A stretch of DNA of 64,000 bases from Pseudacidobacterium ailaaui (GTDB taxonomy: Bacteria; Acidobacteriota; Terriglobia; Terriglobales; Acidobacteriaceae). How positions within the stretch are numbered: position 1 is the first letter of the stretch; each line of letters begins with the position of its first letter. The stretch covers positions 2,139,001 to 2,203,000 of the forward strand of contig NZ_JIAL01000001.1 in the NCBI RefSeq assembly GCF_000688455.1, written 5' to 3'. This document shows positions 53,477-60,105 of this stretch, one piece after another. Position numbers and translations under genes: made by a program. The notes under the pieces were generated by a model. That model had not been told where the DNA came from and did not search any database. It worked only from the letters and a program-made list of their open reading frames with translations.

Positions 53477-54266
53477 TCTAGTGGACCGCGCACGGGCCGC
53501 GGTATCGGAACGCGCAGAACTTCCCGGCATGACCCTCCTCGAACACCTGGAGGAATTGCGAAAACGGATTATCCGGGCAGCGATTTATCTCGTCCTCGGA
53601 TTTTTTGTGGCTTACGGGCTCCACGAGAGAATTTATGGCTACATGGAAAAGCCCATCATTTTTGCTTTGCAGCGGCACCATCTGCCGACGCAATTGAATT
53701 ATCACAACCCGATTGATGGCTTTAACCTGTACCTGAAAATCAGCTTTATGGCTGGGTGCATTCTGGCTTCGCCATTTGTGCTTTATGAGGTGTGGAAGTT
53801 CATCTCGCCTGGACTTTATCAGCATGAAAAGCGCTATGTAACACCTTTCATGATCTCTACCGTTGGCCTCTTTCTGGCTGGCGCTTATTTTGGCTACCAC
53901 TGGGTCTTTCCTGGATCGCTTGATTTTCTCTTTACCTTCAATAAAGATTTCAATCCGCTGATTGAGATCAATGAATATACTGACCTCTTTCTGACGGTCA
54001 TTCTTGGTCTGGGAATCACGTTTGAACTGCCGATTCTGGTGATGTTTCTCGCGCTTTTCGGGATCGTGAATGCAAAGTTTCTGCTCAAGAACATTCGCTA
54101 CGCAGTTCTGATTATCTTCATCATTGCGGCCATCATCACACCTACTCCAGACGTGTTGACAATGTGTGTCTTTGCCACACCGATGCTGGTTTTGTATCTG
54201 ATTAGTATCGGTGTTGCTTATATGGTCCATCCCGCCCGCCGCAAACGAAAGGCCGGAGCGGCATGA
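53469..54266 (+). CDS. tatC: Sec-independent protein translocase TatC
   Basis: A 265-residue TatC with six membrane helices. The N-terminal signature MTLLEHLEELRKRIIRA near residue 18 and the conserved PFVLYEVWKFISPGLYQHEKR near 98 form the twin-arginine signal-peptide site. TPTPDVLTMCVFATPMLVLYL near the end is typical. It overlaps the next gene by 4 bases (ATGA), so the QPCT-like secreted enzyme follows in the same operon. Confidence 0.97.
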   Translation: MADLVDRARAAVSERAELPGMTLLEHLEELRKRIIRAAIYLVLGFFVAYGLHERIYGYMEKPIIFALQRHHLPTQLNYHNPIDGFNLYLKISFMAGCILASPFVLYEVWKFISPGLYQHEKRYVTPFMISTVGLFLAGAYFGYHWVFPGSLDFLFTFNKDFNPLIEINEYTDLFLTVILGLGITFELPILVMFLALFGIVNAKFLLKNIRYAVLIIFIIAAIITPTPDVLTMCVFATPMLVLYLISIGVAYMVHPARRKRKAGAA

Positions 54267-55183
54267 TGGCAAGGCGGAGGTGGGAGAAAAAGGCAGCGCG
54301 CTGCTTCATAATTTTGGGTCTGCTTTTGCTCGACCTTTCCGCCAGTCATGCTCGGACTGAGGAAGGCGCATTCAATGGGCTCCGTGCACTGGAATATACG
54401 CGTCAGTTTGTTTCCATCGGGCCCCGCTGGGTGGGCAGTCCTGGACATGCGAGGGCAGAGGCGTTTCTGAAGCACCAGTTTGCAAAAGACAATCTTGAGT
54501 CAGATTCGTTTATTTCCAATACTCCGGTCGGCCCCCAGCAGATGACGAATTACATCGTCCGGTTTCCCGGGAAAAAAGATGGTGTGATTGTTCTGGCTTC
54601 ACATTATGAGACGAACTATCCGCTGCGGAATATCCATTATGTTGGTGCCAATGATGGCGGGTCTTCAACCGGACTGCTTCTTGAATTAGCAAACCATCTT
54701 CGTGGTCACGCGCGGGAGGGATACAGCGTGTGGCTGGTTTTTCTGGATGGCGAAGAGGCCTTCCGGCAGTGGTCAGACACAGACAGTACCTATGGCAGCA
54801 GGCATCTGGCCGCAAAATGGCAGAACGATGGTACTCTCAAGCGCATCAAAGCATTCATTGTGCTTGACATGATTGGCGACAAGGACCTGAATATCCAACG
54901 GGATTCCAATTCCACAGGATGGCTGCTGGACATCATCCAGCGTGCAGCCGCCAAATATGGGGACCAGTCATATTTCTTTGAAGAGCGAACGAGTGACTTA
55001 GATGACCACATTCCATTTGTTCGTCGCGGTGTTCCTTCCGCCGATGTGATTGATCTCGACTATGGATACCAGAACTCCTTTTGGCACACGGAGCAGGACA
55101 CGATGGACAAAATCAGCGCGAAGAGCCTTTCCATTGTAGGGAACACCATGCTGGAAACGATCCGGCTTCTGGACCAGCATTGA
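54263..55183 (+). CDS. QPCT-like (M28-family) glutaminyl-peptide cyclotransferase
   Basis: A 306-residue exported protein with a signal peptide (LGLLLLDLSASHARTEE). The M28 metal site is seen as HYET (His114), GANDGGSSTG (Asp131), and the strongly QPCT-like FLDGEEAFRQWSDTDSTYGSR (Glu164/Glu165) and LDMIGD (Asp206), then SDLDDHIPFVRRGVP (Asp247/248) and FWHTEQDT (Trp274/His275). These match the single-zinc animal-type glutaminyl cyclases rather than ordinary M28 aminopeptidases. It would convert N-terminal Gln or Glu to pyroglutamate on exported proteins. It overlaps tatC by 4 bases and terC by 1 base. Confidence 0.84.
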   Translation: MMARRRWEKKAARCFIILGLLLLDLSASHARTEEGAFNGLRALEYTRQFVSIGPRWVGSPGHARAEAFLKHQFAKDNLESDSFISNTPVGPQQMTNYIVRFPGKKDGVIVLASHYETNYPLRNIHYVGANDGGSSTGLLLELANHLRGHAREGYSVWLVFLDGEEAFRQWSDTDSTYGSRHLAAKWQNDGTLKRIKAFIVLDMIGDKDLNIQRDSNSTGWLLDIIQRAAAKYGDQSYFFEERTSDLDDHIPFVRRGVPSADVIDLDYGYQNSFWHTEQDTMDKISAKSLSIVGNTMLETIRLLDQH

Positions 55184-56094
55184 TGATTGCCGGGGCAACT
55201 CTTTCCTACTGGATCTGGTTCCATGTGCTTGTGGCCGTACTGTTGTTTGTAGATCTGGCCATACTACATCGCGGACAGCATTCCCTGCGGCTCCGTGCGG
55301 CATGGGGTTGGACCATTTTTCTGGCAACACTGGCCTGCGGCTTTGCGATTTTTCTTTCCAAGACCCAAGGCCATCAGCATGGACTGGAATTTTTCTCCGG
55401 ATACCTGATTGAAGGCTCGCTCAGCATTGACAATCTTTTTGTCTTTCTCATGCTGTTCCGGGCGCTGCGGCTGGATGCAGAAGAGCAGCACCGGGTGCTT
55501 TTGTGGGGAGTGTTGGGCGCCATTCTGATGCGGGCCTTGTTTATCGCCGTCGGCGTGTCGCTGCTGAACCGGTTTGCCTGGATCCATTATGTCTTTGGCG
55601 CATTTCTGCTGTATGCCGCCATCCGCCTGATGCGTGAAAAGCCAGAGAAAGAATCCAGCCCAGGCGTTCTGACGTGGCTCCAACGTCGGAACCTGCGAGG
55701 CATTACAGACCGCGGCGATCAAGGCGTCCAGTTGAAGATGCCTGCGCTTCTATTCGTGATTCTGGCCATAGAAGCAACCGATCTGATCTTTGCGCTTGAT
55801 TCCATCCCGGCAGTTCTGGCGATTACCCGCGATCCTTTTATTGTGTATACATCGAATATTTTTGCAATCCTTGGATTGCGATCGCTGTATTACGTCCTTG
55901 CCGGGCTTCTCAGTAAACTTCGTCTTCTGCATTATGGCCTTGCAGTTGTGCTGGCATTTGTGTCGCTGAAGATGCTTCTTGCTGAGTGGATTGAGGTCCC
56001 TGTGACAATCTCGCTTGCTGTCATTCTGTTTGTCCTTGCCGTGTTTGCTGTTGCCAGCAAGCTGGTCTCCACAAAGAAGTCCGCTGATGTCTGA
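55183..56094 (+). CDS. TerC-family integral membrane protein
   Basis: A 303-residue membrane protein with about nine helices, starting in the TGATG overlap with the upstream stop. TerC signatures are the paired acidic motifs SLSIDNLFVFLMLF near residue 84 and EATDLIFALDSIPAVLAITRDPFIVYTSNIFAILGLRSLYY near 195-230. Relatives (Alx/MeeF) export manganese, partly linked with Sec/Tat-exported metalloproteins; others give tellurite resistance. No yybP-ykoY riboswitch can precede it, since the start is inside the operon. Confidence 0.93.
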   Translation: MIAGATLSYWIWFHVLVAVLLFVDLAILHRGQHSLRLRAAWGWTIFLATLACGFAIFLSKTQGHQHGLEFFSGYLIEGSLSIDNLFVFLMLFRALRLDAEEQHRVLLWGVLGAILMRALFIAVGVSLLNRFAWIHYVFGAFLLYAAIRLMREKPEKESSPGVLTWLQRRNLRGITDRGDQGVQLKMPALLFVILAIEATDLIFALDSIPAVLAITRDPFIVYTSNIFAILGLRSLYYVLAGLLSKLRLLHYGLAVVLAFVSLKMLLAEWIEVPVTISLAVILFVLAVFAVASKLVSTKKSADV

Positions 56095-56156: not shown

Positions 56157-57362
56157 TCAGTAAGAGGACTTGATGTTATAGGTCAGTCCCATGATGAACT
56201 GGAAAGAATTTCGTTTTGTCGGCGGAATCGTTGCAGGCGGATCGTTCAGATAGGAATCGGTTGTTCCCAGGGTGAAACTGAGATTCTTGTAAGTTGGAAA
56301 ACTAAGAGTGTCCGTTTCCGTCACAGAATAAGCGTGCAGGTCGTTCCAGCCCGGGATATAGAGAAGCTGTTGATTCCATACCATGCCTTTTGGCAGTTTT
56401 CGGTTGTAATTCGCGCCGAACGTAGAGGCAATCAAATTGATTTCTGCCTGCGCCGGAGGCACGACATTGAAGAAGGCCTGCCTCTCGTATTGCGCTGTCG
56501 CCTTCAGGTCCAGTTGTTGTTTGGCATCTTTGATTGGCGTCCAGCCGAAGCCGCCACCATAGATCTGTTGCAGCTCCAGGCTCTGGCTGTAGTTGTGGTC
56601 GAAGGAGACCATGCCCAGGGCGTATACTCTTGGCGAAAAATATTCATCGCGTTCCGCATCGACATGCAAAATTGAGTTTTTCGTATAAGAAGACGGAACT
56701 AGTGTCCCATCTGCTGCACGATACGCAGGCTGGGTAATTTTCCCATAGGACTGTGCATAGTTGATCGCGGTGCGGTTGCTTGGATCCAGCCAGCTCAACG
56801 TAGGGACGACGCGAACTAGGTTTAGGGCGCCGGAAAAAGTGTACTGGTTCTGCGTAGCAGAGACGATGGTTGTGCCCGCCGTAGCTCCGCCATTCCATCC
56901 CTGCAGGAAGCCCGGGTGACCACGAAATTGTTTGTCAAAGGTGGTTTGATCCACTACAACCTGCACGTTCTTGACTGGAATGGGGGGAATGGTTGCGGTA
57001 GCAGATTGCACGATAATCTGCTGATTTTCAACCGATGCGGTCCCGATAGGAAAATTCGGCGGCAGATGGTGGTCCTTGATCCTGACGCCCTTTTCGAGGA
57101 CCACGACATTTTGTGCCGTATGCAGCTCCTTGATCTTGTCCCATCCGATATTGATGTCGCCAAGAATGTCTGAGTGGAAGACGACCGTATCACCGAGTGC
57201 ACGCACAAATTTTCCAGACAACTGGTCGCCGTTCGTGAAGACAACAATATCGGCTTGTTTTGACTGCCCGTATAACAAGCGGCCATCCAAGCAGCCGAAA
57301 AAGAACACGGCGAAGACCGCCCATGTCAAAGGCCGGCTTTTCCAGGAGAGCAAAGACAGCAT
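56157..57362 (-). CDS. DUF481-type outer-membrane beta-barrel protein
   Basis: A 401-residue exported protein (signal peptide ending near LLYGQSKQ). The first part (about residues 38-120) has a repeated strand pattern TNGDQLSGKFVRALGDTVVFHSDILGD, often found ahead of DUF481. The rest shows alternating beta strands that end in the aromatic FQFIMGLTYNIKSSY, a barrel-type C-terminus. DUF481 proteins are induced by salt or acid in enterobacteria; function here is unknown. It is a single gene, convergent with the preceding terC. Confidence 0.8.
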   Translation of the reverse strand: MLSLLSWKSRPLTWAVFAVFFFGCLDGRLLYGQSKQADIVVFTNGDQLSGKFVRALGDTVVFHSDILGDINIGWDKIKELHTAQNVVVLEKGVRIKDHHLPPNFPIGTASVENQQIIVQSATATIPPIPVKNVQVVVDQTTFDKQFRGHPGFLQGWNGGATAGTTIVSATQNQYTFSGALNLVRVVPTLSWLDPSNRTAINYAQSYGKITQPAYRAADGTLVPSSYTKNSILHVDAERDEYFSPRVYALGMVSFDHNYSQSLELQQIYGGGFGWTPIKDAKQQLDLKATAQYERQAFFNVVPPAQAEINLIASTFGANYNRKLPKGMVWNQQLLYIPGWNDLHAYSVTETDTLSFPTYKNLSFTLGTTDSYLNDPPATIPPTKRNSFQFIMGLTYNIKSSY

Positions 57363-57619: not shown

Positions 57620-58420
57620 ATGACACGAAACGAGGCCCTCGATTTTTTTCTCTCCAGCGACCTGATTGGCCTGGGTATTGATGCAGACGAAGCGCGCAGA
57701 AGGGTCCATCCCGAGAACGTGGTGACCTATTTTCTGGAAGAGGACGGGGCAGCCCCTCTGCAAAAGCTTCCTGAAAATGGCGGAATCTGTATCCGGTCTG
57801 GACTGGATGAAGAGCTGCTTCACAGTCTTCGCAGGGTCTGTAGTTCCCTGACCCTACGCGCTTCTGCATCTGAGGTCCTTTCTTATGCAAAGCGTCATCG
57901 TCTGGATCTCAATGAAGCCCTGGTTCGGCTTTCCGATGCCGGGCTGGATTCGATTACTGACGAAGACCTGCCTGCAGACGAATGGCTGCGCTTACACCGT
58001 GCAGCGCATGGGGCCGGAATGAAGACCGTAGCATCGTATGTCTTCGGAGCCGGTGAACCTTTGGAAGCGCGGGTGGACTTTCTTGATACAGTCCGCCGGA
58101 TCCAGGAAGAGACGGGGGGATTTGTGGCCCTGGCACCCATCAGTTATGCGCCAGTCCGGCAACTGGATGCTCCCACGGGGGTGGAGTATCTGAAGATGAT
58201 AGCCATTGCACGGCTGTATCTGCCTGAGATTGAGCATATTCAGGCGAGCTCCATTTCGCAGGGCCCCAAAATGGTGCAACTGGCTTTGCGGTTTGGCGCA
58301 GACGATGCCGGTGTTGTGCCTCCTGGCATCACTGAGCAAGACCTGCGTCGCATGATACGAGATGCAGGATTCCGGCCAGTGCAAAGGGACCTCTTGTATC
58401 GAATGGTGATGTTAGGTTAG
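57620..58420 (+). CDS. MqnC-derived protein lacking the radical-SAM cysteine motif
   Basis: A 266-residue protein clearly related to MqnC (cyclic dehypoxanthine futalosine synthase of menaquinone synthesis). Residues 14-38 match its N-terminal helices (DADEARRRVHPENVVTYFLEED), 100-130 match the AGLDS region, and 150-266 match its C-terminal barrel: ETGGFVALAPISYAP, VEYLKMIAIARLYLPEIEHIQASSISQGPKM and FRPVQRDLLY. The CX3CX2C cluster motif is missing, as are the GGGAE and ISPGK-like loops; the only Cys are 57 and 74. It cannot bind a [4Fe-4S]-SAM centre in the usual way. Family lengths are about 370 aa. It may be a scaffold or regulator of the pathway. Confidence 0.82.
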   Translation: MTRNEALDFFLSSDLIGLGIDADEARRRVHPENVVTYFLEEDGAAPLQKLPENGGICIRSGLDEELLHSLRRVCSSLTLRASASEVLSYAKRHRLDLNEALVRLSDAGLDSITDEDLPADEWLRLHRAAHGAGMKTVASYVFGAGEPLEARVDFLDTVRRIQEETGGFVALAPISYAPVRQLDAPTGVEYLKMIAIARLYLPEIEHIQASSISQGPKMVQLALRFGADDAGVVPPGITEQDLRRMIRDAGFRPVQRDLLYRMVMLG

Positions 58421-58536: not shown

Positions 58537-60105
58537 TTGCGCTCGCATTATGCCGACCGCACATTTGAGCACCTATACCGCTGGAACTGGTTCGACACCA
58601 TGCTGCTGGTTCCGTATTTTGCGGTGATGATTGTGCTGGCCTTCTACGGATTGCATCGCTACCAGCTCGTCTATCTGTATTACAAGCACCGCAAGAATGC
58701 GGCCAAGGATCCGCCGAAGCGATTTGCACAGCTTCCGCGAGTCACCATCCAGCTGCCGATTTTTAACGAGCAGTTTGTGATTGACAGGCTGATTGACGCC
58801 TGCTGTAAGCTCGACTACCCTCAGGAGCTTCTTGAAATTCAGGTTCTCGATGATTCTACGGACGAAACCAAAGAAGTAGCCAGAAACCTGGTGGAACAAT
58901 ACAGGCAAGCGGGGAACCCTATCGTTTACATCCATCGTGAGGACCGCCAGGGGTTTAAGGCGGGGGCCCTGGACCATGGCATGAAAACTGCCACCGGTGA
59001 GTTTATTGCCATTTTTGACGCGGATTTTGTCCCTCCTCATGACTGGCTCATGAATGTCATCCATCATTTTGCGGAGCCGGATGTGGGCATGGTCCAAACG
59101 CGATGGACACATCTCAATCGCGATTACAGCTTTCTCACTCAGGTGGAGGCCATTCTGCTGGATGGACACTTTGTACTCGAACATGGCGGGCGGTCCCGGG
59201 CACAGGTGTTCTTCAATTTCAATGGAACGGCAGGGATGTGGCGCCGCAAGGCAATTGAAGAGGCCGGCGGCTGGCAGCATGACACGCTTACGGAAGATAC
59301 GGACCTCAGTTATCGGGCGCAATTGAAGGGGTGGCGCTTCAAATATCTCCAGCATGTAGAGTGTCCGGCGGAGGTGCCTATCGAGATGACGGCCTTTAAG
59401 ACGCAGCAGGCTCGCTGGGCCAAGGGGTTGATCCAGACTTCAAAAAAGATTCTGCCGCGGGTCTTTCAGAGTGAGGCGCCGTTTCATACCAAGCTGGAGG
59501 CATGGTATCACCTGACGGCCAATATCAGTTATCCGTTGATGGTGGTGCTTTCCACTCTTCTGATGCCAGCCATGATCATCCGCTTTTATCAGGGATGGTT
59601 CCAGATGTTGCTGATTGACGTGCCGCTCTTTATGGCGTCAACGTTTTCGATTTCGTCCTTCTATTTGGTGTCGCAGAAGGAACTCTTCCCACGCACCTGG
59701 TTCAAGACATTTCTTTATCTGCCTTTTCTGATGGCGCTGGGGATTGGACTCACCGTGACCAATACAGTTGCTGTGATGGAGGCATTGCTGGGAATCCAGA
59801 GTGCGTTCAAACGCACTCCGAAATACCGGGTACAAAGACGCGGTGAGAAGTCGAAGGCAGCAAAATATCGGAAAAGGCTGGGCATCGTTCCCTGGATCGA
59901 GCTGCTGATCGGATGTTATTTCGCTATGACGATCTGGTATGCCATCAGCAATGAAAACTACTTTACTGTGCCTTTTCTTTTCATTTTTGTGATGGGCTAC
60001 TGGTATACCGGCCTGCTTTCTTTGTTACAAGGGCGTTTTGAACGTCTGCGGGGCGGAGCCGGGCTGGAGGAGTCATCGCCGAAACCATTTCCCGTGGGTG
60101 TGTAG
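58537..60105 (+). CDS. Membrane GT2 processive-type glycosyltransferase
   Basis: A 522-residue (or longer) family 2 glycosyltransferase of the cellulose synthase/CslA type. It has one N-terminal membrane helix (residues 20-36), the GT-A core with DDSTD at 105-109, DAD at 161-163, EDTD at 253-256 and QQARW at 290-294, then four or five C-terminal helices. These D,D,D,QxxRW motifs mark processive beta-glycan synthases. No PilZ domain is present. The frame stays open upstream to a CTG at 58471 preceded by GGAG, which fits better than the TTG at 58537. Downstream is a c-di-GMP-type regulator on the other strand. Confidence 0.9.
   Translation: MRSHYADRTFEHLYRWNWFDTMLLVPYFAVMIVLAFYGLHRYQLVYLYYKHRKNAAKDPPKRFAQLPRVTIQLPIFNEQFVIDRLIDACCKLDYPQELLEIQVLDDSTDETKEVARNLVEQYRQAGNPIVYIHREDRQGFKAGALDHGMKTATGEFIAIFDADFVPPHDWLMNVIHHFAEPDVGMVQTRWTHLNRDYSFLTQVEAILLDGHFVLEHGGRSRAQVFFNFNGTAGMWRRKAIEEAGGWQHDTLTEDTDLSYRAQLKGWRFKYLQHVECPAEVPIEMTAFKTQQARWAKGLIQTSKKILPRVFQSEAPFHTKLEAWYHLTANISYPLMVVLSTLLMPAMIIRFYQGWFQMLLIDVPLFMASTFSISSFYLVSQKELFPRTWFKTFLYLPFLMALGIGLTVTNTVAVMEALLGIQSAFKRTPKYRVQRRGEKSKAAKYRKRLGIVPWIELLIGCYFAMTIWYAISNENYFTVPFLFIFVMGYWYTGLLSLLQGRFERLRGGAGLEESSPKPFPVGV

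Follow-up and report, generated by a model that had tools for sequence, protein, structure and literature searches.

Dead relatives of enzymes can be kept as a partner or regulator, and HisZ and PDX1.2 are pseudoenzyme partners of this kind. In these two cases the dead protein is a paralogue of a still active enzyme of its own kind. The futalosine pathway of menaquinone synthesis contains two enzymes that matter here: MqnC (TIGR03699), the cyclic dehypoxanthinyl futalosine synthase, a radical SAM enzyme with a CX3CX2C motif for its [4Fe-4S] cluster, and MqnE, the aminofutalosine synthase, for which structures are available (PDB 6xi9, 6xig). In the table of PMC3914697, the MqnC count for Acidobacteria is 5 in 5 proteomes. 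A two-hybrid study of H. pylori (PMC8144621) has a passage in which MqnE and MqnC are mentioned with FdxA; that passage is of no help here. No dead MqnC was found in the titles and abstracts obtained by full-text search, most subscription journals being outside its coverage. In this study, a stretch of 64,000 nucleotides (the window) was analysed, and one gene in it, a short relative of mqnC, was followed through the genomes of its family.

A short MqnC-like protein and its predicted fold

The gene lies on the forward strand at 57620-58420, where the frame is open over 266 aa from an ATG start. The top NCBIfam match of the product was MqnC (TIGR03699), at 148 bits, below the 428 cut-off for membership. 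In Pfam, CofH_C was matched at 46 bits (cut-off 27) and Radical_SAM only below threshold. The protein has exactly two cysteines, residues 57 and 74, and the spacing of 17 given in the first-pass annotation is correct.

The protein was aligned to full-length MqnC in the numbering of one full-length sequence (L187); the edges of the deletions depend on this alignment. Five stretches are missing. The first, of about 35 residues (47-81), falls after residue 44 of the window protein (57751-57752, edge approximate) and takes with it the [4Fe-4S] loop and its CX3CX2C, a motif expected of any radical SAM MqnC. The second is about 8 residues long (103-110). The third, of about 16 residues (166-181), follows residue 117 (57970-57971) and starts at the end of GGGAE; G163, G164 and A165 of that motif are replaced by E115, D116 and L117, and the gap comes next. 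The fourth (244-249, about 6 residues, the NTALGG loop) and the fifth (306-317, about 12 residues, the EENVVKAAG loop) follow residues 179 (58156-58157) and 235 (58324-58325), respectively. The open frame, profile match and alignment thus confirm the earlier description of a short MqnC-derived protein without CX3CX2C and GGGAE. The same description had listed an ISPGK-like loop among the losses. No such loop was seen in the full-length relatives aligned; the loop lost there is NNTALGG or similar.

Two segments are the best preserved ones across the short forms. The N-terminal one (residues 1-39, 57620-57736, forward strand) comprises two helices and the first strand. The C-terminal one (residues 186-266, 58175-58417, forward strand) retains the motifs TxVEYLK ... 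QGxK ... RFGxxDxG ... RxAGFxPxQRD..Y.

AlphaFold2 gave a confident compact barrel for the window protein (pLDDT 91.1, pTM 0.89), from an input alignment that held full-length rows, which may favour a barrel. The model superposes on MqnE (6xi9) over 265 of 266 residues with an rmsd of 2.1 and Z of 30.2, as expected for the same fold. The next family in the structure comparison was biotin synthase (Z 20.5), and Foldseek also places MqnE first. The protein has thus lost its catalytic residues and is predicted to keep its fold under selection, as a pseudoenzyme would.

The native locus and the foreign enzyme

The gene is preceded by a divergent gene of the DUF481 family (56157-57362, reverse strand) and followed by a gene of glycosyltransferase family 2 (58537-60105, forward strand, start codon uncertain). 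Further out, beyond the DUF481 gene, lie ordinary genes for a TerC-family membrane protein (55081-56094) and an M28 peptidase (54263-55183). A scan for promoters and terminators returned nothing clearly above chance, and nothing at the start of the gene. Sixteen gene contexts were compared, 11 with a short form and five with full-length mqnC; in one of them (G034) the gene was masked by a longer antisense frame and its position was taken from a separate read. DUF481 adjoins the gene in four of the 15 contexts other than the window, two with full-length mqnC (G013, G140) and two with a short form (G164, G090). The glycosyltransferase family is near in 13 of these 15, so that with the window 14 of 16 contexts have it no more than a few kb away from mqnC or the short form. 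Further neighbour families common to short and full forms were seen only inside g34 or only inside g80, and a few are common to g34 and G164. Since neighbours are common to short and full genes, mostly within genera, the short gene is taken to be the native mqnC and not a newcomer.

The genome of the window is a single contig of 3.69 Mb with completeness rated 100%. When it was searched for matches to the window protein, the sole other matches were L002, a full-length MqnE (504 bits, above its cut-off), and L003, a divergent MqnC-like radical SAM gene. Canonical MqnC was not found in this search, and a recent duplicate beside an intact canonical MqnC was rejected as an origin of the short gene. 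The product of L003 keeps CX3CX2C and GGGSE intact, scores 305 bits against TIGR03699 (again under the 428 cut-off) and is 32% identical to the window protein across the aligned part. A check for intact mqn genes elsewhere, suggested by the first-pass annotation, thus turned up an MqnE and another MqnC-like enzyme; two PF02621 genes are also present, as expected for MqnA and MqnD. The classical menaquinone route was considered as well: MenB was above cut-off in none of the 10 genomes tested (G000, G034, G273 and seven of f2), where only weaker matches were obtained, such as related enzymes produce. Judged by its motifs and family, the L003-type enzyme probably performs the cyclisation step of MqnC.

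A similar gene set was found in the one other species of the genus that was compared (G001). Its counterpart of the window protein has 272 aa, 60% identity, similar loops missing and no cysteine, and MqnE is present together with an L003 counterpart 87% identical. In the family as a whole (f1), L003-type genes occur in 53 of 398 genomes, spread over seven of 79 genera. The native mqnC locus of these 53 genomes carries an open, motif-less gene in 47. In 46 this is a single-frame gene of 266-327 aa; the remaining one, in G324, is a form of 178 aa. Two more motif-less copies are broken at Ns: that of G348 at 42 Ns, and that of G302 at two Ns and a frame change, which could be a truly broken copy. 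Full-length MqnC is present together with the L003-type in two genomes (G230 and G374), and no mqnC-like match was found in the last two, G122 and G329, with completeness of 85 and 84%. Among the 48 L003-positive loci whose gene was read through completely over its full span, 46 lack CX3CX2C.

Full-length MqnC was also read in 46 genomes outside the 53, and all 46 carry CX3CX2C and GGGAE. Some of them belong to g34, g80, g82 and g31, in which L003-type genomes occur as well. Absence of the L003-type was directly seen for 36 of them; for the other 10 (G267, G225, G182, G238, G242, G224, G211, G094, G240 and G214) it means that they are not among the 53 positives. Among loci of other genera (L005-L031), both motifs are present in 26 of 27, and the 27th (L018, of G018) is cut by a contig edge. 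None of the remaining 35 f1 genomes in the first survey, each of a different genus, has the L003-type. For the genomes read, no short form occurs where the L003-type is missing. Among these genomes the short form thus tracks the L003-type, not the genus. Two further genomes, G189 (completeness 99%) and G208 (83%), may no longer be able to make menaquinone: a search with the L003 protein (E up to 1e-8), which in other genomes picks up MqnC and MqnE as well, gave no match in either.

The sister-species short form and the family survey led us to reject a sequencing artefact or a lone pseudogene. It had been suggested that full-length homologues with CX3CX2C in close relatives would point to such an artefact or pseudogene. 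Homologues of this kind do exist, as far as the letter of the suggestion goes, but its conclusion does not follow, given the short form in the sister species and the 47 of 53 genomes with an open motif-less gene. The view that the losses centre on catalytic loops in an MqnC-derived pseudoenzyme is supported by the alignment and by this comparison across the family.

The sister family f2 also has the L003-type, which was detected at 68-78% identity in 12 of the 14 genomes examined. Apart from the L003-type, the short form found no match in f2 at E values up to 1e-8. In a tree of 15 of the 53 f1 L003-type sequences and 12 from f2, the f1 sequences form one clade (SH-aLRT 99) nested within f2 (83-92). 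Short flanks of the L003-type genes were compared; their neighbours are not the same from one genus to another, nor throughout g34, which is what repeated acquisition would be expected to produce.

Number of conversions and selection on the short forms

In a joint tree of short and full forms, all short forms fall into one clade (SH-aLRT 99) with very long branches. The tree set left out the sequence at the contig edge (L018), two with Ns (L232, L234), the 178-aa form (L236) and L194, which is identical to L193. The single clade was judged unreliable because of the long branches. When short forms of g82 and g1 were constrained to stand with the full forms of g82/g86, the likelihood was 2.63 log units above that of the free tree (p-AU 0.546). 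Eleven short forms were then placed one at a time. The window protein alone joins the full MqnCs of g82/g86 (SH-aLRT 89), consistent with descent from MqnC. Four short forms of g34 and two of g80 fall inside the full forms of g34/g80/g31 (77-97 for the clade). For G001 and G090 the placement, on the g82 side, is weak; the form of G164 groups with three other genera, and that of G091 takes no resolved position. When mapped onto a tree of MqnE from 42 genomes, which stands in as a single gene for the species tree, the short/full state needs eight changes (7-9 in bootstraps), six of them forced by well-supported branches. With this requirement the conversion looks parallel.

We consider that the short forms are probably parallel conversions and not one clade, and that conversion probably occurred several times in f1, with six as the minimum unless full-length MqnC was regained. 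It had been proposed to ask whether the short forms make up one conserved acidobacterial clade; the single placements and the MqnE tree indicate probable parallel origins instead, and the joint tree disagrees. One ancient origin, with a single short MqnC that arose together with the L003-type and was passed on as a pair, or with full MqnC regained later, seems unlikely to us. The joint-tree clade agrees with it, and so does the clade of the 15 treed f1 L003-type sequences (SH-aLRT 99 in both). It is at odds with the higher likelihood of the constrained tree, the single placements of the window, g34 and g80 forms among full forms, and the changes (six to eight) required on the MqnE tree. Neighbours held in common with full forms of the same genus, deletion edges that differ between short forms, and the unlike surroundings of L003-type genes between genera and within g34 argue against it too. 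This alternative concerns history and can be combined with any functional reading.

An early stage of conversion may be visible in G374 (L207), which has the L003-type and an MqnC with intact cysteines, yet shows 12 departures at 213 invariant columns. In comparison, the count never exceeds three in any of 47 rows that represent 46 genomes outside the 53, one of them in duplicate. None of the 12 departures falls within residues 1-40 or 253-348, which contain 80 of the 213 columns. Judged from this pattern, the G374 MqnC looks like a first stage of conversion. The MqnC of G230 has four departures from invariant columns. At the other extreme, the 178-aa form of G324 (L236:943-1476) has its N-terminal part of about 40 residues joined directly to the C-terminal half, with the frame open. 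This half-barrel was likewise modelled confidently, with pLDDT 89.3 and pTM 0.87, from an input alignment of the same kind as that of the window protein.

Selection was estimated from dN/dS of pairs with dS of 0.15-1.2, and the 25 least diverged short pairs and 15 least diverged full pairs were detailed. In the best-sampled group, that of g34 around G232, close short pairs have dN/dS of 0.08-0.13 at dS of 0.25-0.58. Other least diverged short pairs gave 0.16 (G383-G319), mostly 0.20-0.28 (g80), 0.37 (G420-G404) and, where G289 or G287 was one of the pair, 0.60-0.93. The 15 least diverged full-length pairs divide into 11 with 0.03-0.12 and four with 0.16-0.28. Over all usable pairs, short forms have a median of 0.33 (167 pairs, range 0.06-0.93) and full forms one of 0.11 (403 pairs, 0.02-0.28).

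Constraint was also estimated by region (N-terminal 40 positions, C-terminal 96 positions, middle) in four short groups of g34 and g80. The N-terminal part (0.05-0.15) and the C-terminal part (0.03-0.16) are the most constrained, and the middle is at 0.09-0.38. At the ends, two g34 groups are about as tight as the enzyme (0.03-0.07), whereas the third (g34c) and g80 are at 0.13-0.16, above full-length MqnC (0.02-0.07). Synonymous divergence is substantial in every region of the four groups (pS 0.34-0.60), so the constraint acts on the protein; in each group the N-terminal segment has the lowest pS. A DNA-level element in the conserved ends is disfavoured, as synonymous sites diverge there too. 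Between the window gene and its G001 counterpart dS is saturated (2.0), and the differences by codon position are 79/57/158 over 261 codons. The window gene, with its open frame, shows neither the broken frame nor the neutral pattern of a pseudogene. The same two segments stand out in the columns that are near-invariant in MqnC. Of these 236 columns, the short forms have lost 41, among them C51, C55, C58, G163, G164 and E166, and retain 79; residues 1-40 and 253-348 account for 55 of the retained columns.

The short forms thus seem to be maintained by selection still, as far as substitution patterns indicate, and a period of relaxed evolution around the conversion, followed by constraint, would fit them. 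A slow decay, in which the short form is a non-functional relic of MqnC that stays open by chance after the replacement, is in our estimate quite improbable. Its best arguments are the long branches, a middle part highly variable between lineages, overall constraint weaker than in MqnC, the two L003-positive genomes without a trace of the gene (both incomplete, as given above), and the break in G302, which could be real. Decay of this kind is hard to reconcile with all 47 motif-less copies free of Ns being open in one frame, with dN/dS near 0.1 in the best-sampled group, with end segments that are the most constrained despite substantial synonymous divergence, and with the codon-position differences between the window and G001. 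In view of the open motif-less gene in 47 of 53 comparable genomes, the window gene is neither an artefact nor a plain pseudogene.

A repurposed small barrel, i.e. a new enzyme with a different, non-radical chemistry, is a long shot. A confidently predicted closed barrel and the retention of some residues at C-terminal strand ends (FGxGE, QGxK, RFGxxDxG) would suit such an enzyme. In 45 short forms, a new majority residue was found at only five otherwise conserved columns (M97L, G164D, T192A, I236T, T319A), among which no new catalytic signature is evident. Loop length and sequence differ among lineages, and one lineage is down to a half-barrel; all three observations speak against such an enzyme.

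Proposed role and known systems

Based on the sequence comparisons, the window protein is well supported as a conserved pseudoenzyme. We lean, if not strongly, to the reading that it descends from the native MqnC, is catalytically dead and, once stripped after a foreign takeover, was kept for a non-catalytic, partner-binding role. The foreign L003-type enzyme would have taken over the cyclisation, that is, the cyclic dehypoxanthinyl-futalosine synthase step of MqnC. The native MqnC, freed from catalysis, would then have shed its active-site loops. It would have been kept because of a second, non-catalytic role residing in the surface or pocket formed by the N-terminal helices and the C-terminal half-barrel. 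This role would most likely be the binding, and the stabilising or regulating, of a partner in the futalosine pathway. Such a partner is inferred, with MqnE as first choice and the replacement MqnC as second; as third choice, a pathway intermediate might be held in the remaining half-pocket.

N-terminal helices of TIM barrels generally lie outside the pocket. What favours a protein partner is that the N-terminal segment, remote from the pocket in such barrels, ranks with the best preserved regions. A ligand-binding pseudoenzyme is the alternative here: the C-terminal half would bind dehypoxanthinyl futalosine or a neighbouring metabolite as a sink, sensor or carrier, with no protein partner. 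We consider this rather unlikely. The strand-end motifs of the C-terminal half are among the kept residues, as it would require, but the best kept parts include the N-terminal helices, which presumably lie outside the pocket, and loops near the pocket are lost.

For the partner-binding reading, MqnE is the first candidate because f2 has the L003-type but neither MqnE nor a further match to the short form, and because mqnE and mqnC can be adjacent. MqnE was absent in all seven f2 genomes tested. The case for MqnE as partner is circumstantial and built on gene content and gene order; the clue from f2 could be a coincidence, f2 being one lineage. In two unrelated bacteria (L088, L089) the two genes are directly adjacent (Desulfuromonadales) or overlap by about 4 bases (Selenomonas, where mqnC stands behind two consecutive MqnE-type genes). 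Each of the seven f2 genomes G037-G043 (e.g. L121, L185) carries the L003-type and a pair of PF02621 genes, of MqnA and MqnD type. With no MqnE and no MenB above cut-off in any of the seven, their source of aminofutalosine is unexplained.

A wider reading is that MqnC has a hidden, widely needed role independent of catalysis, for example as a structural partner of MqnE, and is stripped down to it after each foreign takeover. We regard this as possible and put it forward tentatively. If true, evolution in f1 would have separated the catalytic from the non-catalytic functions of an enzyme naturally and repeatedly, perhaps six times or more, with the extreme stripping reaching a half-barrel of 178 aa. 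The parallelism would make it directly testable whether MqnC does something beyond catalysis. For annotation there is a warning: a motif-less MqnC-like gene does not mark a working enzyme, and the L003-type probably supplies the step.

Compared with known systems, the window protein is like MqnC in descent, locus, barrel fold and its N- and C-terminal segments. Unlike MqnC, it has neither the [4Fe-4S] motif nor GGGAE and its further loops are shortened, and it is not expected to act as a radical SAM enzyme. MqnE provides the closest solved fold to the model, but is a separate, intact gene in the same genome (L002). The L003-type protein of that genome belongs, like the window protein, to the CofH/MqnC superfamily; it differs in its intact CX3CX2C and GGGSE and in that it also occurs in f2. 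As far as our searches show, the kind of pseudoenzyme is known and the MqnC-derived variant is apparently undescribed. It represents a radical-SAM-derived pseudoenzyme, seemingly under purifying selection, that seems to have arisen several times in parallel once an enzyme in a respiratory quinone pathway had undergone xenologous replacement. In contrast to HisZ and PDX1.2, it is the native orthologue that was disarmed in this family, apparently on several occasions, with a foreign replacement present.
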